NCBI GenBank assembly: GCA_021776235.1
Contig: JAJFGG010000130.1
Coordinates: forward strand, 1-41,340
From: Alphaproteobacteria bacterium
GTDB lineage: Bacteria; Pseudomonadota; Alphaproteobacteria; GCA-2731375
Length of the DNA: 41,340 bases
Direction of reading: 5' to 3'
Part shown: positions 1 to 36,680 of the stretch, one piece after another
Position numbering within the stretch: position 1 is the first letter of the stretch
How the letters are laid out: each line of letters opens with the position of its first letter
Translations under genes and position numbers: made by a program
Notes under the pieces: generated by a model
What the model was told of the DNA's origin: nothing
The model's database searches: none
What the model saw: only the letters and a program-made list of their open reading frames with translations

Positions 1-962
1 AAGGTCACGGTGGTGCCGGCCAGTTCAGCGTCTTTGATCCGGCGGGCGACCCGGTCCGCCTGACGCCAGAGGATCTTCTTCAACTCCTCGCCATCGGCAA
101 TATCGTGGTGGAATGTAGTCTCCGAGGAAATGCTCTTGGTCGGCCGGTTGGGACTGATCCGGCGCGGATCTTCGCCTCGCACGAACTGCGCCATGCGCAA
201 ACCCATGGCGCCATAACTGGCAATCAGCCGGCTCTCCTCGATGGCCTGCAGTTGCGCTACCGTGGTGATGCCATCCTTGGCCAGACGTTTTTGCAATGCC
301 TTCCCGGCACCCCAAATGACCGCTACAGATTGCCCGGCCAGAAATTCCACCGCCTCGGCCCGGCCGATCACGGCGAACCCCCGGGGCTTGTCCAGATCGG
401 ACGCGACCTTGGCCAGGGATTTGTTATAGGACAGGCCAATAGAGGCGGTAACGCCTACTTCGGCTTCAATTCTCTTGACGATCGCGGCGGTGGTCGCAGC
501 TGCGGACTGGCCGTGCAACCGTTCGGTTCCAGTCAGGTCCAAAAATGCCTCGTCCAGGGACAACGGCTCCACCAACGGCGTGTAATCCTTCATGATTGCC
601 CTGATTTGGCGCCCCACCGCTGAATACTTCTTCATATCGGGGGGGATCACAACAGCCTGAGGACAAGCTTTGCGGGCCTTGAACATCGGCATGGCGGAGC
701 GGACACCGAAGGTACGCGCGCGATAACAGGCCGCGCTGACAACGCCCCGATGGCCACCACCGACAATGACCGGCTTGTCCGCGAGAGATGCATCGTCACG
801 CTTTTCGACACTGGCATAGAAGGCGTCGCAATCCAGATGGGCAATACCCAGCAGCAAAAGTTCTGGGTGCCGGACCAAACGCGGCGAACCACACTCGCGG
901 CAACGCCCGGGCATCTCTGCGTCCGGGGCGGCAACAAGACAGTCGCGGCACATCGCCGTCAT
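1..962 (-). CDS. dinB: DNA polymerase IV (Y-family), C-terminus beyond window edge
   Basis: Error-prone translesion DNA polymerase that extends past damaged template bases. Translating the minus strand from 962 gives about 320 residues with no stop before the edge. The fold signatures are HLDCDAFYASVE (first metal-binding Asp near residue 44) and SLDEAF (Asp137, Glu138), followed by the helix-hairpin-helix region and the start of the little finger. The N-terminus carries an extra CxxC...CxxC segment (Cys5, 8, 21, 24) that looks like a small zinc ribbon, which I recall in other alphaproteobacterial DinB proteins but not in the E. coli enzyme. The ATG overlaps the stop of the upstream ROK gene as ATGA, so the two are probably translationally coupled. 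I saw no LexA-type box directly upstream. Confidence 0.93.
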   Translation of the reverse strand, partial: MTAMCRDCLVAAPDAEMPGRCRECGSPRLVRHPELLLLGIAHLDCDAFYASVEKRDDASLADKPVIVGGGHRGVVSAACYRARTFGVRSAMPMFKARKACPQAVVIPPDMKKYSAVGRQIRAIMKDYTPLVEPLSLDEAFLDLTGTERLHGQSAAATTAAIVKRIEAEVGVTASIGLSYNKSLAKVASDLDKPRGFAVIGRAEAVEFLAGQSVAVIWGAGKALQKRLAKDGITTVAQLQAIEESRLIASYGAMGLRMAQFVRGEDPRRISPNRPTKSISSETTFHHDIADGEELKKILWRQADRVARRIKDAELAGTTVT

Positions 963-27370: not shown

Positions 27371-27510
27371 TAATACCCGGTGACGCATGTTACGAAGTGT
27401 CAAGGCCCGGTGAAAACATGAAGATCCGATACCGGCTCTGGCCAAATGATCACCGTCGGGACCTGCAATAATTTTGAAACGGGTCTCAAACGTAATTGGA
27501 GCCCGGAGCC

Positions 27511-27816
27511 ATGCAGTACCGCGCCAAAGAAGAGGGACACAGCAAGGAACTTTTCCTTAGCGGATCCTTCAATTTCTCTGACAACAGCGTCTTTCGTGAG
27601 ATCATCAAAGACATGGAAGACTATGGCGGGCAAGATTATGTGCTTGATCTTGACGGCCTCGAGTATATCGACTCGGCCGGCCTCGGCATGTTGTTGATCG
27701 CCCGCGAGACGGCGGAAAAGAAGTCCTTGCAGCTCTGTCTCCGGCGGCCCCAGGGGCAGGTGCAACAGATGCTGCAAGTCACCAGATTCATCGACCTGAT
27801 CCCCTGTGAGGCCTGA
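27511..27816 (+). CDS. STAS-domain anti-anti-sigma factor, copy 1
   Basis: A 101-residue anti-sigma-factor antagonist of the SpoIIAA/RsbV type. The conserved phospho-acceptor is Ser55 in YIDSAGLGMLLIARE. When dephosphorylated such proteins sequester an RsbW-type kinase and free its partner. The start is ATG 27511, with GGAG upstream. It is 84 percent identical (85 of 101 residues, counted by eye) to the copy at 28259, and the DNA just upstream of both genes is also related, so this is a recent tandem duplication. Confidence 0.93.
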   Translation: MQYRAKEEGHSKELFLSGSFNFSDNSVFREIIKDMEDYGGQDYVLDLDGLEYIDSAGLGMLLIARETAEKKSLQLCLRRPQGQVQQMLQVTRFIDLIPCEA

Positions 27817-28098: not shown

Positions 28099-28258
28099 AA
28101 GTTATACACGCATTACGACACTTAGTGGTCCTCGGATGATGCATGATTTTTGGGGCCAAACCTAGGAGAAAGAAGCCGATACTGGTGCCGCGTGCACCGC
28201 CTGAGACAGGTACAGCAATATATATCGGTCCACCTGAAAAATTTTGGAGAGCATGTTC

Positions 28259-28564
28259 ATGCAGTACCGTGCCAAAGACGATGGAAACGGCAAGGAAGTT
28301 TTCCTTAGCGGATCCTTCAAATTCACCGACAACGATGTCTTTCGCGAGATCATCAAGGACATGGAAGACTTTGCCGGGCACGATTACATCCTCGATCTGG
28401 ATGGCCTCGAGTACATCGACTCGGCCGGCCTTGGCATGTTGTTGATCGCCCGCGAGATGGCGGAGAAAAACTCCCTGCAGCTCCGTCTGCGGCGGCCTCA
28501 GGGACAGGTGCAACAGATGTTACAGGTCACCAAATTCATCGACCTGATCCCCTGCGAGGCCTGA
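28259..28564 (+). CDS. STAS-domain anti-anti-sigma factor, copy 2
   Basis: A 101-residue paralogue of the 27511 gene with the same phospho-site (Ser55, YIDSAGLGM) and identical C-terminal third except two residues. Differences cluster in the first 45 residues. GGAGA precedes ATG 28259 by eight bases. The RsbW-like ATPase starts nine bases after its stop, so copy 2 is the one co-transcribed with its probable kinase. Confidence 0.93.
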   Translation: MQYRAKDDGNGKEVFLSGSFKFTDNDVFREIIKDMEDFAGHDYILDLDGLEYIDSAGLGMLLIAREMAEKNSLQLRLRRPQGQVQQMLQVTKFIDLIPCEA

Positions 28565-28573
28565 GCAGAGACA

Positions 28574-29368
28574 ATGGGGTTCTCGCAACCAATTGTCCTT
28601 CAGGCCATCGGGGTGAACAGCCACGATATCCGTGAAATGGCCCATCGGCTGGGTCTGGAAGCGGCGTCCACCGATGGCGCTGCGGCCGGCATGGGAACAA
28701 TGTCGGCAACACCACTGCCCTCAGAGGCGGCCGGGGCCGGACCAAGAATTTTGATGCTTCTCTCCGATCCGAGCGAAACCGAGATCGAAAAAGCAGTAAA
28801 ACCGCCGATCAGCGCCGGTCTCGAGGTCATAGACATCGCCGCGGCCGGTGAGGAAGCGGATACAAGCCTCGGCCAGGAATTCATGCCCTTGCTGGATCAG
28901 TACCAAATGCAGCTCTCTTTGAGCGCGGCCACGGCGTACGATAGCAACGTCGCGCGGATTTTCTGTCAGGCCTTGGCAGAGCGGGCCGCCCCGCCCAAAT
29001 GCGATTGGCCTATGTTGCAAATTGCCGTACATGAGGCATTGGCCAATGCGGTCATTCACGGAAGTCTTGAGGTTGGAAGCTTTTCCCGCACTTCCCTGCA
29101 AGAGTTCGAGACCTATAACAAAGAAATCAGCACGCGGCTCAAAGACAAATCCTTCACACAACGGCGCGTAACCCTGTCTGCCCGCTGGGACGAGGACGAG
29201 ATCGAAATCCGAGTGCAAGACCAGGGCCCCGGGTTCATATTGGATCGCCAGGCTGGAGCAGCAAACGATTTTGCCAGCGAACGTGGTCTGGGAATTATTC
29301 ATGAAGCAGCAGATCTGGTACAGATCCAGGATGGCGGCCGCCGTGTGATCTTCACCTTTGCCTGCTGA
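28574..29368 (+). CDS. RsbW-like ATP-binding regulator with extra N-terminal domain
   Basis: A 264-residue GHKL ATPase of the anti-sigma-factor kinase type. The C-terminal half has the N-box HEALANAVIHGSLEVG near residue 155, the G1 box QDQGPGF and the G2 box ERGLGII, all intact. RsbW/SpoIIAB proteins are usually about 150 residues. Here about 110 extra N-terminal residues are present, with an alpha/beta-like segment PRILMLLSDPSETEIEKAV that might be a degenerate receiver; I cannot assign it. It should phosphorylate the STAS serine or be held by the STAS proteins. No sigma factor gene is adjacent, so the output partner is unknown. Confidence 0.83.
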   Translation: MGFSQPIVLQAIGVNSHDIREMAHRLGLEAASTDGAAAGMGTMSATPLPSEAAGAGPRILMLLSDPSETEIEKAVKPPISAGLEVIDIAAAGEEADTSLGQEFMPLLDQYQMQLSLSAATAYDSNVARIFCQALAERAAPPKCDWPMLQIAVHEALANAVIHGSLEVGSFSRTSLQEFETYNKEISTRLKDKSFTQRRVTLSARWDEDEIEIRVQDQGPGFILDRQAGAANDFASERGLGIIHEAADLVQIQDGGRRVIFTFAC

Positions 29369-29469: not shown

Positions 29470-29761
29470 TGTGGGGCGTCACTAACTGAGTTCACCGGGA
29501 TAGACTTAATGGTATCAGCGCCTCGCAGAATGTCTGGTCATTTGCCACGTCACCTTGGGGGAAAGCGCATGGGCAAGAAGAGCCTCGGATGTCCGGACGG
29601 CGAACATGGGCGCTTTCGGAGAACCGGGCGTAAAAATCACCAAACCGATGCCATTTACTATCTTGCGATGATAGGGAGCCCGGCACACGCGGCCCAAACC
29701 TGGCGCGACCCCGGCCGCTCGAGTTTTCGGCGCCTGGCCTTCAGCCGATCTGTTCCAATTG

Positions 29762-31867
29762 ATGCAGATTGAGATGGAAGGAAGTCCGATAGTGGTCCAG
29801 GTTGCACAGCGCGAGGCCTTCGGCGGTCCGATCTCATCGTCGGCATTGGTCGGTTTTGAAGCCATACTTGATACCATGAATCAGGGATTGGTCGTCTTTG
29901 ACGATCAGTTGATAATCCTGGCCTGCAATGAGCGCGCCGCCGGTCTGTTGGATGTCCCAAGGGAACTTCTTATGACGGGCGCCGGTTTCGACGCCATCAT
30001 ATGGCACGCGGCACAGCGTGGCGACTATGGCCCTGGGGATCTCGAGCAATTGGTGGAAAAGTATATTGCGATCGCATCATCGCGCGAAGCTTATTGCTTC
30101 GAGCGGCAGCGACCCGATGGCACAGTCCTTGAGATTACCGGCAATCCCCTTCCGGGCGGCGGCTTTGTTACGACCTACACCGACATCACCGAGCACAAGC
30201 AGACCGAGGTGGCATTGTCGGAAAGCGAACGCCGCGTGGCACAACAGATGGAATTGCTCGACACCACTCTGAAATCCATGGATGAGGGTGTCATGGTATG
30301 CGACAACGAGCTGCGCATCCTTTTCTGCAATGACAAGGTGCGGGAACTGTTCGAGCTTCCCCAGGACGTCGCAACCGTGGGTTCCCCATTTTCGAGCTAC
30401 CTGCACTTCTGCGCCGAGAACGGGATGCTCGGCAGAGGTGATACCGCGGAACTGGTGCGCGACAAGGAAGTCTCGATCGCACAAACCCAACGCATTCGTC
30501 TGACCCGCACCATGCCCGCGGGCAAGGTCTTGGAGATCCGGCGTAACCCAATGTCGGATGGAGGTTTCGTCATGACCTTTTCCGACATTACCAAGCATAG
30601 GAGAATCCAGGCCGACCTGGCGGAAAGCCAACGTCGATATCAGGATTTTGCCCAGGCGTCCGGCGACTGGGTATGGGAGATGGATGCGGAGCTTCGGTTC
30701 AGATATTTCTCGCCGAATGTGCAGAAGGTGACAGGCCTGGCACCCGAATGGCACTACGGCAAGACCAGAGAGGATTTGCTTGGTGACGGTTATGACCAGC
30801 AAATTTGGGCTGACCATCTTCAGACCCTGCAGGATTGCGAACCGTTTCGGGATTTCGTTTATCGTAGGGTCGGCCCGGGAGCCGAGCCGCAGTGGCTAAG
30901 TTCCAGCGGCAGCCCGGTGTTCGCCGCAGATGGTAGGTTCCTGGGCTATCGGGGCGTCGGCTCGGACGTCACGGCGCAAAAGGAAGCCGAGATCGCCCTG
31001 CGCGAAGCCAAAGAAAATGCAGAGACGGCCGCAAATCTGGCCCGGGCGGCAACCAGCCATAGAGCGGCATTATTGGAAGAATTGAGCGCAACCCATGCCG
31101 AGTTGGAGACGGCGCACAGCCATTTGGAGCAGGAACTGAATCAAGCGCGCGACATGCAAGAGGCGCTGCTGCCAGGGCCGAAATACGTACAGAACGTTGA
31201 AAATGCCTTCGATCTGAGAATTGCTTCGCACTTCGCCCCATCATCGTTACTGGGCGGTGACTATTGGGGCATGATCCCGATCGATGATGACCGGCTGGGT
31301 CTGACCATAGCGGACTTCTCCGGGCATGGCGTAAACGCCGCGATGAATACCTTCCGTCTGCATACACTTTTACGCCAGTTTGGCCCTGATCCTGATGACG
31401 CCGCCCTTTACCTGCAACGGCTGAACGCCGCTTTGGGACCGCTGTTGCCGACCGGCCAGTTCGCCACCATGTTGTGCGGTATAATCAATACGGCATCGGA
31501 CATCTTTGAATACGCGCCTGCTGCCGCGCCCACGCCGCTGGTATACCTGCCGGGCGAAAAGAAATTGATCGCCGGCGAGAACGCCGGCATCCCGCTTGGC
31601 GTGGTAAGTGAGCCGAACTACCAGACACTTGAGATTCCGTTTCCGCCGGGCGCCGTTCTGTTTCTTTACAGTGATGCTTTGATAGAATCGCCCGATCGTG
31701 ACGGTGTCATGTTGGGAGAAGAGGGCCTGGCGAAACAAGTCACCGCGCATCTGCAAAGCGAGTCACCGGAGACACTTACACAATCGATCGTCGATACCTT
31801 TAACGAGTCGACCGACGGCCCGCCCCCGGATGACCTCACGGTGCTTTCCTTCTGGCGCCAAGAGTAG
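29762..31867 (+). CDS. Triple-PAS SpoIIE-type PP2C serine phosphatase
   Basis: A cytoplasmic 701-residue sensor phosphatase. PAS domains lie at about 30-150 (ILDTMNQGLVVFDDQL), 165-285 (LDTTLKSMDEGVMVCDNEL) and 295-415 (RYQDFAQASGDWVWEMD); the first two are PAS_7-like. A coiled coil (415-475) leads to the PP2C/SpoIIE domain, with metal-binding Asp residues in GGDYWG, IADFSGHGVNAA, YSDALIE and the terminal DDLTVLSFW. It should dephosphorylate the upstream STAS proteins in response to a PAS-sensed signal. No membrane segment is seen. ATG 29762 was used; TTG 29759 and ATG 29774 are alternatives and none has a strong ribosome site. Confidence 0.9.
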   Translation: MQIEMEGSPIVVQVAQREAFGGPISSSALVGFEAILDTMNQGLVVFDDQLIILACNERAAGLLDVPRELLMTGAGFDAIIWHAAQRGDYGPGDLEQLVEKYIAIASSREAYCFERQRPDGTVLEITGNPLPGGGFVTTYTDITEHKQTEVALSESERRVAQQMELLDTTLKSMDEGVMVCDNELRILFCNDKVRELFELPQDVATVGSPFSSYLHFCAENGMLGRGDTAELVRDKEVSIAQTQRIRLTRTMPAGKVLEIRRNPMSDGGFVMTFSDITKHRRIQADLAESQRRYQDFAQASGDWVWEMDAELRFRYFSPNVQKVTGLAPEWHYGKTREDLLGDGYDQQIWADHLQTLQDCEPFRDFVYRRVGPGAEPQWLSSSGSPVFAADGRFLGYRGVGSDVTAQKEAEIALREAKENAETAANLARAATSHRAALLEELSATHAELETAHSHLEQELNQARDMQEALLPGPKYVQNVENAFDLRIASHFAPSSLLGGDYWGMIPIDDDRLGLTIADFSGHGVNAAMNTFRLHTLLRQFGPDPDDAALYLQRLNAALGPLLPTGQFATMLCGIINTASDIFEYAPAAAPTPLVYLPGEKKLIAGENAGIPLGVVSEPNYQTLEIPFPPGAVLFLYSDALIESPDRDGVMLGEEGLAKQVTAHLQSESPETLTQSIVDTFNESTDGPPPDDLTVLSFWRQE

Positions 31868-34585: not shown

Positions 34586-35347
34586 TCAGCCGTCCCAGAC
34601 TTCCTTGGGCAGGGGCAGACCGGCCAGTTCACGCTGGCCGATGGGGCCGTCGGGGGCAATATTCAGACCTTCCAGGACAAGCAGAATCTGCCGCACGTGC
34701 TGGGCCGTGTGCCAGGCAGTCCGCTCCAGGATATCGTGCAGTGATTGTGCGCCATAATAGGTGGCGACGGGGGCATCGAAATCCATGCTTTGCCCGTCCC
34801 CCTCCCACCAGGCCAGCAGGTCACGCCGCGCAATCTCGCCGTCATCGGCGATATCGGCAAAGCTGACCAGATCCTCCCCTGCTTCCAGTCCCAGAAACTC
34901 ATGGCTCAATTCGCCGCCCCGGGCGACCACCAGAAAGCCTCGGGTGATCTGAAATATATGGTAGGTCAACGTGCGATAGCTGCGCGGCCGGCCCGGCAGT
35001 TCCGACAACATCTGGCTATCGGGCAACTGGCGCAAATAGCGTTGCGCGGCGGCAAGGACCCAGTCCAGCCGTTGCACCAGTTCACCGGGGGCCAGGATGT
35101 CCGCGCCCTGGTCATCCAGGCCGAGAAAGGCGCCCACTTCGCGCAGGGATTGCCCTATGACATAGCGCTCACCCTTGGCCACCACGGGCACGGTGCGCAC
35201 GCCTAGCTGATGCAATTGCGCCAACCCATCCGGGTCGGCGACCACATTGATCGATTTGAAGTCAACCGCACGGGCCGACAAATGCTCCTTCAGGCGGAGA
35301 CAGCTGCTTCACCCGGGTTGCCAGAAAACCCTGATTGCTTCGTTCAT
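34586..35347 (-). CDS. Glutaredoxin-DinB fusion with in-frame TGA at the redox site: candidate selenoprotein
   Basis: A reading frame of 254 codons with one internal TGA (35311-35309, codon 13). The first 12 codons give MNEAIRVFWQPG; the TGA then stands where glutaredoxins have the first Cys (Q-P-G-U-S-S-C, Cys16 intact). The rest of the glutaredoxin domain follows (cis-Pro near residue 54 in RTVPVV) up to about residue 77. A DinB-type four-helix bundle occupies about 85-230 (TYHIFQITRGF and AWHTAQHVRQI, likely metal-binding His). AGAGGTGA precedes ATG 35347, two bases after the oxidoreductase stop. If TGA is selenocysteine the protein has a UxxC redox centre. Alternatives are a nonsense mutation, or a truncated product from TTG 35281. 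No selA, selB, selC or selD is in the window. Confidence 0.72.
35261..35279 (-). promoter_or_regulatory. Candidate bacterial SECIS stem-loop
   Basis: On the mRNA, GUCGGCCCGUGCGGUUGAC folds into a 7-pair stem (two G-U pairs) with the loop CGUGC, which contains the GU typical of bacterial SECIS loops. The loop begins about 36 bases after the UGA. A three-base bulge and four more pairs (AUUU/AAAU) may extend it. It was found by eye, without energy calculation. Confidence 0.45.
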
Positions 35348-35349
35348 GC

Positions 35350-36525
35350 TCACCTCTTGTGTCCCATGCGTTTGAATGTACGTTCGCGCTTTTCCAGCCA
35401 CCAGCCATATTGTGCCGGCCACATCTCAAAATTTGGATCGATGCCCAGATCCTGCGCCGCCTGCACGGCCCAGAACGGATTATACATGATTTCACGGCCC
35501 ACCGCGATGAGATCCGCATCTCCCGCCTGCAGGATGGCTTCAGCCTGCACACCATCCAGAATCAGTCCCACGGCCATGCTCATGATCGCCGCCTCGGCCT
35601 TGACGGCGGCGGCATAAGGCACCTGGAAACCCAACCCCCGGGGGATCAGGTTTACCGTCGCCGAAGCCGCATTGCCGCCAGACGAACAGTCGATGCAATC
35701 CACGTCCAGCGTTTTTAGTTCCTTTGCCAGGGCGATCGAATCGGCTAACTGCCAACCGTCTTCCGAACCATCGACAGAGGAGATGCGAAAGAACAGCGGT
35801 TTGTCCTCGGGCCACTGACGGCGCACTTCGCGGGTTACTTCCAGGGCCAGGCGCATGCGTCCCGCCAGATCATCGCCATAACCATCACGACGCTTGTTCG
35901 ACAGCGGCGAGAGAAACGACTGGATCAAATATCCATGGGCGCCATGAATTTCCAGAGCCTCGAAGCCGGCCGCATGGGCCCTGGCCGCACCCTGGCCGAA
36001 GGCCGTGACGATGTCAGCAATCTCGTCCTCGGCCAGTTGTCGTGGTACCAGCCAGCCTTCATCCGCCGGAATAGGAGACGGCCCAACCACTTCCCACGGC
36101 ACCTCTCCCCGGGCAATATCTTCATCGTTCAAGGCGCCCAGACCATCCCAGGGGCGTTGGGTCGCGGCCTTGCGGCCGGCATGGGCGATCTGAAGGCCCG
36201 GAACGGCGCCATGCCGCTTCATGATATTGACCAGGGGCTTCATGGCCTCGCCCTGTTCATCGCGCCAGATGCCCAGGCAGCCGTGGGTGATACGGCCACG
36301 CTCTTCCACCCCGGAGGCCTCGACAAAGATGATCCCCGCACCGCCACGGGCATAGCTGCCGCAATGCACCAGATGCCAATCGTTAGCGACACCGTCCTGG
36401 GCCGAATACTGGCAGAGCGGCGGCACCACGATGCGGTTGCGCGCCGTCATTGATTTAATGCTAACGGGTTGAAACAGCAGCGGCAGGTCCGTCTGCCGCC
36501 CTGCCTCCCCGGCGCTGTCGCTCAT
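35350..36525 (-). CDS. NADH:flavin oxidoreductase (Old Yellow Enzyme family, YqjM-like)
   Basis: A 391-residue FMN-dependent ene-reductase. The N-terminal LFQPVSIKSMTARNRIVVPPLCQYSAQDG has the YqjM-type Cys. The substrate-binding His is in EIHGAHGYLIQSFLSP, and LQIAHAGRKA, RISSVDGSEDGW and AVGREIMYNPFW complete the barrel. ATG 36525 has AGGAG seven bases upstream. The following glutaredoxin-like gene starts two bases after its stop, so the pair is an operon and may share a redox function. Confidence 0.93.
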   Translation of the reverse strand: MSDSAGEAGRQTDLPLLFQPVSIKSMTARNRIVVPPLCQYSAQDGVANDWHLVHCGSYARGGAGIIFVEASGVEERGRITHGCLGIWRDEQGEAMKPLVNIMKRHGAVPGLQIAHAGRKAATQRPWDGLGALNDEDIARGEVPWEVVGPSPIPADEGWLVPRQLAEDEIADIVTAFGQGAARAHAAGFEALEIHGAHGYLIQSFLSPLSNKRRDGYGDDLAGRMRLALEVTREVRRQWPEDKPLFFRISSVDGSEDGWQLADSIALAKELKTLDVDCIDCSSGGNAASATVNLIPRGLGFQVPYAAAVKAEAAIMSMAVGLILDGVQAEAILQAGDADLIAVGREIMYNPFWAVQAAQDLGIDPNFEMWPAQYGWWLEKRERTFKRMGHKR

Positions 36526-36535
36526 GGTTTCGCTC

Positions 36536-36680
36536 CTACCAAAGATTTTCCACGATCCATTGTCGCAGCAAGACGGCGATCTGGTCGCTGTTAGTATCCA
36601 ACATGGGTGCATGGGTATTGCCATGTATGTCCCGTTCTGGCAATTCCAAGCAGGCCGCATCGACGCCGGACCGCGCCATT
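36536..36680 (-). pseudogene. C-terminal remnant of an alpha/beta hydrolase
   Basis: The minus frame ending at 36536 reads RSGVDAACLELPERDIHGNTHAPMLDTNSD..., close to the last 45-50 residues of alpha/beta hydrolases (the pattern GIHGNGHMMMLEKN with the catalytic His). Upstream in the same frame the similarity stops and no start or nucleophile Ser motif is found. The left boundary is approximate. It appears to be the relic of a gene that once preceded the flavin oxidoreductase; its TAG lies in that gene's ribosome site. Confidence 0.5.

Follow-up and report, generated by a model that had tools for sequence, protein, structure and literature searches.

A gene within the window, the 41,340-nucleotide stretch of alphaproteobacterial DNA analysed here, carries an in-frame TGA at its thirteenth codon, and the question it raises is whether this codon is read as selenocysteine (Sec) or is a fault in a decaying gene and, if it is read, what kind of protein results. 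The open reading frame begins MNEAIRVFWQPG-TGA-SSC…, that is, 12 codons from the ATG to WQPG, the in-frame TGA, and then SSC at the start of 240 sense codons that run to the gene's own stop, which is also TGA, giving 253 residues in all. A purine-rich AGAGGTG lies directly 5′ of the ATG. In one relative, L019, a short stretch at the start codon is duplicated in tandem (gene start 1483), which produces MNEAIRNEAIR. A first-pass annotation, made from sequence alone, had proposed a Sec-type gene with the in-frame TGA on the Cys of a UxxC motif, and this observation held; the strand had not been given and is the minus strand. The strong ribosome site it had reported matches the AGAGGTG, its total of 253 residues is correct and the Cys homologue it had named, WQPGCSSC, is present, for example in L135 and L138. 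Its count of SSC and 231 codons after the TGA was a small error, the correct figure being 240.

Table 1 Features of the locus, with coordinates on the window.
Feature	Position	Strand	Remarks
Candidate Sec gene, 253-residue glutaredoxin(UxxC)-DinB fusion	34586..35347	(-)	ATG at 35347, terminal TGA 34588-34586
In-frame TGA, codon 13, very likely read as selenocysteine	35309..35311	(-)	Relatives read have a TGA or Cys codon only
bSECIS-like hairpin GTCGGCC-CGTGC-GGTTGAC	35261..35279	(-)	UGA-to-stem 29 nt, UGA-to-loop 36 nt
Glutaredoxin (Trx-fold) domain	35120..35335	(-)	About residues 5-76
DinB/S-transferase-like helical bundle	34634..35092	(-)	About residues 86-238; invariant H130, H213, H217
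NADH:flavin oxidoreductase-type gene, upstream	35350..36660	(-)	2 nt away; clusters with the L107 neighbour (PF00724)

Our main reading is that the gene very likely encodes a selenoprotein in which the UGA at codon 13 specifies Sec (probability roughly 0.93), because the exchange of TGA for Cys is conserved among relatives, a hairpin is specific to the TGA genes, and the genome holds the Sec machinery with the exception of an identified tRNA-Sec. There is no protein-level or bench evidence, and the Sec-containing product is inferred.

The codon was read in two collections of relatives, which are not independent as they share genomes (L107 is L019, and L108 is L020). The class sample comprised 385 genomes including that of the window, 48 of which had a match, and contained 33 full-length places: in 19 the only internal stop is a single TGA, and the other 14 are free of stops. 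In the 30 places that were fetched the same codon is TGA in 19 and Cys in 11; three stop-free places (a second copy in G306, and those of G367 and G336) lie outside the 30, and their codon was not read. A search of GTDB species genomes returned at least 517 stretches coding for a relative, of which the best 80 were taken. L112 is truncated before the codon, which leaves 79 named relatives with a readable codon, and these divide into 52 with TGA, 18 with TGC and nine with TGT (27 Cys), with no other codon represented. The 80 loci are free of further in-frame stops, and the least similar of the aligned relatives is 42% identical to the window protein. Given 52 TGA, 27 Cys and no other codon among 79 relatives, the TGA at codon 13 is not there by chance. 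Family members are labelled Alphaproteobacteria and some Beta- and Gammaproteobacteria, and the TGA form is found in at least 52 named genome records, including Reyranella aquatilis KCTC 52223 (L164). A phylum-wide sample (n=398) gave matches at E 1e-20 in the window's own genome and G066 only, so the family is thin outside the class in that draw. One genome, G306, has both a TGA copy (L029, G306:C24:4426-5184) and a stop-free copy (G306:C25:5256-6005).

Beyond the TGA, the RNA can form a hairpin of 6-8 base pairs closing a GUG or CGUGN loop. Across 18 distinct sequences, 92% of cells are paired and three pairs vary on both sides; the covariation score was reached by none of 500 shuffles, sliding the partner by 1-3 columns lowers the pairing to 15-60%, and the RNAalifold consensus selects the same helix unprompted. 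Two results count against it: the outermost pair is broken in five and the innermost in six of the 18 sequences of the covariation count, and one of the five measures, further pair types, was matched by 138 of 500 shuffles. Some single folds also show an earlier hairpin, at +15..31; it is absent from the consensus structure and was rejected.

The hairpin follows the TGA. In the named set, at least six of the seven pairs are kept in 41 of 50 distinct TGA sequences, whereas the 27 distinct Cys sequences all keep four or fewer. In the remaining nine TGA sequences the hairpin is instead one of 8-9 bp with a GUU loop, 23 nt past the TGA. Relatives with this +23 hairpin are L121, L122, L145, L155, L157, L159, L166, L170 and L171. 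With both collections combined, a rule-passing hairpin is found in 59 of 62 distinct TGA sequences versus 6 of 37 distinct Cys sequences, the rule being a loop of 3-14 nt with a G in its first two positions, 16-37 nt from the codon and at -5 kcal/mol or lower. This rule follows the bSECIS literature, and the counts do not come from bSECISearch. TGA sequences with a sub-threshold hairpin are L044 and L176, both at -4.9, and L137 at -3.2. The strongest test of the hairpin is the constraint on silent sites, which is specific to the TGA genes. In TGA genes of the first type, agreement in codon choice for the same residue is 0.85 within the hairpin versus 0.49 elsewhere, and the top 7-codon window out of 252 begins at residue 24, within the hairpin; in the second (+23) type, the top window out of 55 falls on that type's own hairpin, a result based on nine sequences with few usable columns. 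Cys genes show no such constraint, with values of 0.42 over the same codons and 0.42 elsewhere.

On a tree of 80 rows the distribution of TGA and Cys needs at least four changes, and omitting residues 13-31 does not alter this. With the hairpin-coded columns included, the +23-hairpin sequences make up a single branch among the TGA rows (98/83), and they need two changes without residues 13-31 (quick method); their status as a single clade is thus left unsettled by the choice of columns, with one or two origins. The simplest reading is that the hairpin moved inside a family that already contained Sec, and separate gains of Sec are not excluded.

The window's own genome has selA and selB adjacent on contig C166, and its selD has an in-frame TGA in the motif HGGG-U-GSK (L052:1501-2427; G000:C46:22266-23192), so that this Sec-type selD is very probably a second selenoprotein gene of the genome. 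Another SelD-like frame over the cut-off lies at G000:C25:131418-132335. Among the class-sample genomes, SelB exceeds the cut-off in 18 of 19 genomes with a TGA gene versus 3 of 13 with stop-free copies only (Fisher p 4e-5); the lone SelB-negative TGA genome, G011, is 77% complete, and the 13 stop-free genomes include G367 and G336, whose codon is unread. tRNA-Sec, taken at 66 bits or more, is found in 16 of the 19 versus 3 of the 13 (Fisher p 9e-4), 66 bits being our own threshold; hits at or below 53.5 bits were taken for tRNA-Ser by analogy and were not individually checked. We regard both associations as supportive and not decisive because the genomes are related and provide only one to three independent pairs, too few for a test.

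No tRNA-Sec turned up in the 174-contig draft to which the window belongs, either in family searches, one of them at E 1e-8, in which 150 of 914 and 94 of 912 candidates received scores, or with 492 bases around a genus mate's tRNA-Sec as the query, a search that had no positive control. Two RF01852 matches, at 49.3 and 47.3 bits, exceed the gathering score but were rejected, as ARAGORN identifies them as tRNA-Ser, and the sole match in this genome to an exact pattern fitting the genus mates' tRNA-Sec was judged by its letters not to be one. ARAGORN on 40 kb and an Rfam scan on 20 kb of the selAB contig were also empty; there is therefore no tRNA-Sec nested in selB there, an arrangement that has been described (PMC8124441). 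All three genus mates have a tRNA-Sec of 96 nt with anticodon TCA. An alpha/beta hydrolase gene adjoining it is 74-87% alike among the mates, and matches to it in the window's own genome are 54% or less. The simplest reading is that the stretch with the tRNA-Sec is missing from the draft, which fits the hydrolase result and is not proven. In G053, selB and tRNA-Sec lie on the same contig as the fusion gene, ~7 kb from it.

The first-pass annotation had also named two outcomes that would refute its reading of the TGA as Sec insertion and not mutation. The first, relatives showing assorted stops and frameshifts in this gene, was not seen: each of the 79 readable relatives has TGA or Cys at the codon, and other in-frame stops occur in none of the 80 loci. 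On the second, a genome without selB and tRNA-Sec, the genome does hold selA, selB and selD, and tRNA-Sec was not found in its assembly. The reading itself is supported by the TGA/Cys exchange, by the hairpin with its silent-site constraint and covariation, and by the three sel genes.

Turning to the protein, both halves meet Pfam gathering cut-offs: residues 6-62 match glutaredoxin (PF00462; 4.6e-9, 36.8 bits, cut-off 22.9) and residues 94-221 match DinB_2 (PF12867; 6.1e-6, 27.1 bits, cut-off 24.8). Invariant across the 80 aligned proteins are the U/C-x-x-C motif, W9, P11, P54, H130, H213 and H217, and we infer from the sequence, without metal-binding data, that the three-His metal site of DinB proteins is kept. 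An AlphaFold2 model (pLDDT 93.8, pTM 0.90) has a Trx-fold domain followed by a helical bundle. The first domain resembles Trx/Grx-like structures (3zit, Z 13.6; 7c10, Z 12.0). The bundle matches the DinB/YfiT structure 6iz2 (Z 15.2, 2.5 Å over 144 residues), mycothiol-dependent maleylpyruvate isomerase 2nsg (Z 13.6), 1rxq (Z 13.2) and the M. tuberculosis mycothiol S-transferase 8f5v (Z 12.3); unrelated helical bundles can reach Z 13-14, and the Pfam match agrees with DinB kinship. Canonical glutathione S-transferases (GSTs) have the same layout, a thioredoxin-fold N-domain and an all-helical C-domain, but the helical half of the fusion instead matches DinB. Homology to canonical GSTs was rejected, with full-length matches being poor (rmsd about 11-16 Å, TM about 0.2-0.4).

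Each half has known counterparts. Bacterial selenoprotein glutaredoxin has the same UxxC in a Grx fold and is listed as experimentally verified (PMC13188914 Table 1); among sequences with a solved structure the nearest are 7c10 and 7c12, the dithiol and monothiol forms of cGrx1, which we take to be the Clostridium oremlandii Sec-glutaredoxin. Bacterial selenoprotein glutaredoxin is not known to have a second domain, whereas the one described here is fused to DinB. The UXX-star families (NF041212, NF041211, NF047338, NF041114 and NF045501) likewise have a glutaredoxin-like domain with Sec. The best NCBIfam match of the window protein is to one of them, NF041212 Uxx-star (1.3e-9, 38.1 versus 66 bits), and is below its cut-off, as are the scores against all five UXX-star models; against the HUGP/GUXX-star fusion model the score is 18.7 versus 325 bits, and no cut-off in NCBIfam release 20.0 was reached. 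All 80 relatives match the same glutaredoxin-type models, the scores relative to cut-offs being known for the window protein only. Members of the DinB/STL superfamily (BstA-H, mycothiol S-transferase, maleylpyruvate isomerase) have the same helical bundle with three conserved His and an HxxxH motif, H130, H213 and H217 of the fusion corresponding to H67, H160 and H164 of BstA (PMC5815605). In eight bacillithiol transferases the three His are the only fully conserved residues and activity is metal-dependent (PMC5815605); the superfamily is also described in PMC10950700, which cites a paper titled as finding glutathione S-transferases within it. Unlike the fusion, the matched DinB/STL chains have no N-terminal glutaredoxin domain in the aligned ranges.

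The combination of the two, which had been recognised before any search was made, held, and no description of it was found in the literature and family models searched. A glutaredoxin-DinB selenoprotein fusion is not described in the open-licence PMC literature searched, and the open-access literature searched yielded no selenocysteine-containing DinB/STL member. The fusion is absent from the 119 families and subfamilies in Table 1 of a 2026 review (PMC13188914), and the main text of the deep-Sep paper (PMC12013277) has no DinB, glutaredoxin or Grx. Table 2 of the GOS paper (PMC2398784) lists 42 'Grx-like' and 2 'Grx' UxxC selenoproteins; these counts could possibly include reads from the N-terminal domain of the fusion, and the paper was not found to hold selenocysteine and DinB together.

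The surroundings of the gene say little about its function. The fusion gene and the NADH:flavin oxidoreductase-type gene upstream are likely to share a transcript, and the same-strand adjacency recurs only in L107, L108 and L110. With neighbours taken as mechanically called ORFs, the commonest is found in 8 of 80 loci; the neighbourhood is thus not conserved, and therefore the enzymatic role stays an inference. Pfam was run on 24 of 30 close same-strand neighbours, six short or overlapping ones being excluded, and returned three Oxidored_FMN, three NAD_binding_2, two SelA and two glyoxalase, the rest mostly single; no consistent pathway appears among the neighbours scanned. A SelA-type gene lies within 100 nt of the fusion gene in 3 of 80 loci (L132, L148 and L176); the two of the 24 identified as SelA by Pfam belong, judging from their length and cluster, to L132 and L148, and that of L176 was joined to them by sequence cluster. 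Elsewhere in the window, two very similar 106-aa ORFs (27496-27816 and 28244-28564), which by eye we take to be STAS-type anti-sigma antagonists, precede an ATPase-like ORF (28574-29368) and a phosphatase-like ORF (29759-31867).

On the selenoprotein reading, the UGA at codon 13 is decoded as selenocysteine by SelB and Sec-tRNA, the hairpin starting 29 nt past it guiding Sec insertion. The 253 residues so made comprise a UxxC glutaredoxin/NrdH-like domain and, after it, a DinB (S-transferase-like) bundle that retains the three-His metal site. For the chemistry we propose a mechanism that is much less certain. The DinB half would bind a divalent metal that activates a low-molecular-weight thiol or its conjugate. 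Glutathione is the expected low-molecular-weight thiol in Proteobacteria. The selenol of the Grx half would form and resolve a mixed selenenyl-sulfide, and one chain may in this way be a self-contained GST-like redox or detoxification enzyme. The coupling of metal-dependent thiol chemistry to a Sec redox step is suggested because of the three-His bundle and the biochemistry of the DinB superfamily (PMC5815605, PMC10950700). Catalysis and metal binding are without data, and we consider this metal-thiol and selenol mechanism, taken as a whole, to be distinctly more likely wrong than right.

The rival that survives best accepts the selenoprotein and gives its halves different roles: the DinB half would have a job other than thiol transfer, for example as a hydrolase, an isomerase or a metal-handling protein, and the Grx half would be an NrdH-like carrier reduced by thioredoxin reductase and not by glutathione. 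In its favour, TIGR02194 NrdH and TIGR02196 YruB each hit every protein of the 80-row alignment with E no higher than 0.001, with the window protein below both cut-offs (33.9 bits against TIGR02194, curated cut-off 85.75), and the DinB-fold matches include the mycothiol-dependent maleylpyruvate isomerase and the self-resistance protein ClbS. Against it, BstA-H and mycothiol S-transferase are metal-dependent thiol transferases (PMC5815605, PMC10950700), and 5 of 80 loci have a gamma-glutamyltranspeptidase-type gene, its Pfam family taken from one member, no more than four ORFs away. We find this alternative as easy to believe as to doubt, and it is compatible with the selenoprotein core.

A second rival holds that the UGA mostly terminates, that a DinB-only product arises from an internal TTG at 35281, and that selenium supply switches between the forms. 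A 231-codon ORF does extend from this TTG, but residues 5′ of the TGA are conserved (W9 and P11 are invariant in 80), and a start there would cost the Grx fold its first strand and first helix, making this reading very improbable. The third, that the gene is decaying and its TGA comes from a nonsense mutation or a sequencing error, can point to a draft assembly in which no tRNA-Sec was found; it is virtually ruled out by the retention of TGA in 52 of 79 relatives, with aligned proteins as little as 42% identical to the window protein and no further in-frame stop, and by the silent-site constraint specific to TGA genes. Reassignment or suppressor reading of the TGA as another amino acid found no supporting evidence and can be set aside almost entirely, as 27 of 27 non-TGA relatives have Cys, the gene itself stops at TGA, and selA, selB and selD are present.

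The selenoprotein reading therefore stands as the preferred one. A bolder version of it would see a widespread undescribed family in which a Sec redox domain is fused to a metal-dependent DinB thiol-transferase, the whole being GST-like and coupling selenium to metal-thiol chemistry, and in which the Sec codon kept its place but the SECIS element moved, its loop now being at +36/37 or +23. We offer this only tentatively and think it clearly less likely than not.

At the least, the locus adds a strongly supported candidate selenoprotein family whose genes ordinary annotation is expected to truncate at the TGA. If the reading is true, it links selenium to the DinB/S-transferase-like superfamily. 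The occurrence of natural Sec and Cys forms in one family would allow a direct test of what selenium contributes, and the two placements of the SECIS-like hairpin within it would make SECIS relocation testable.
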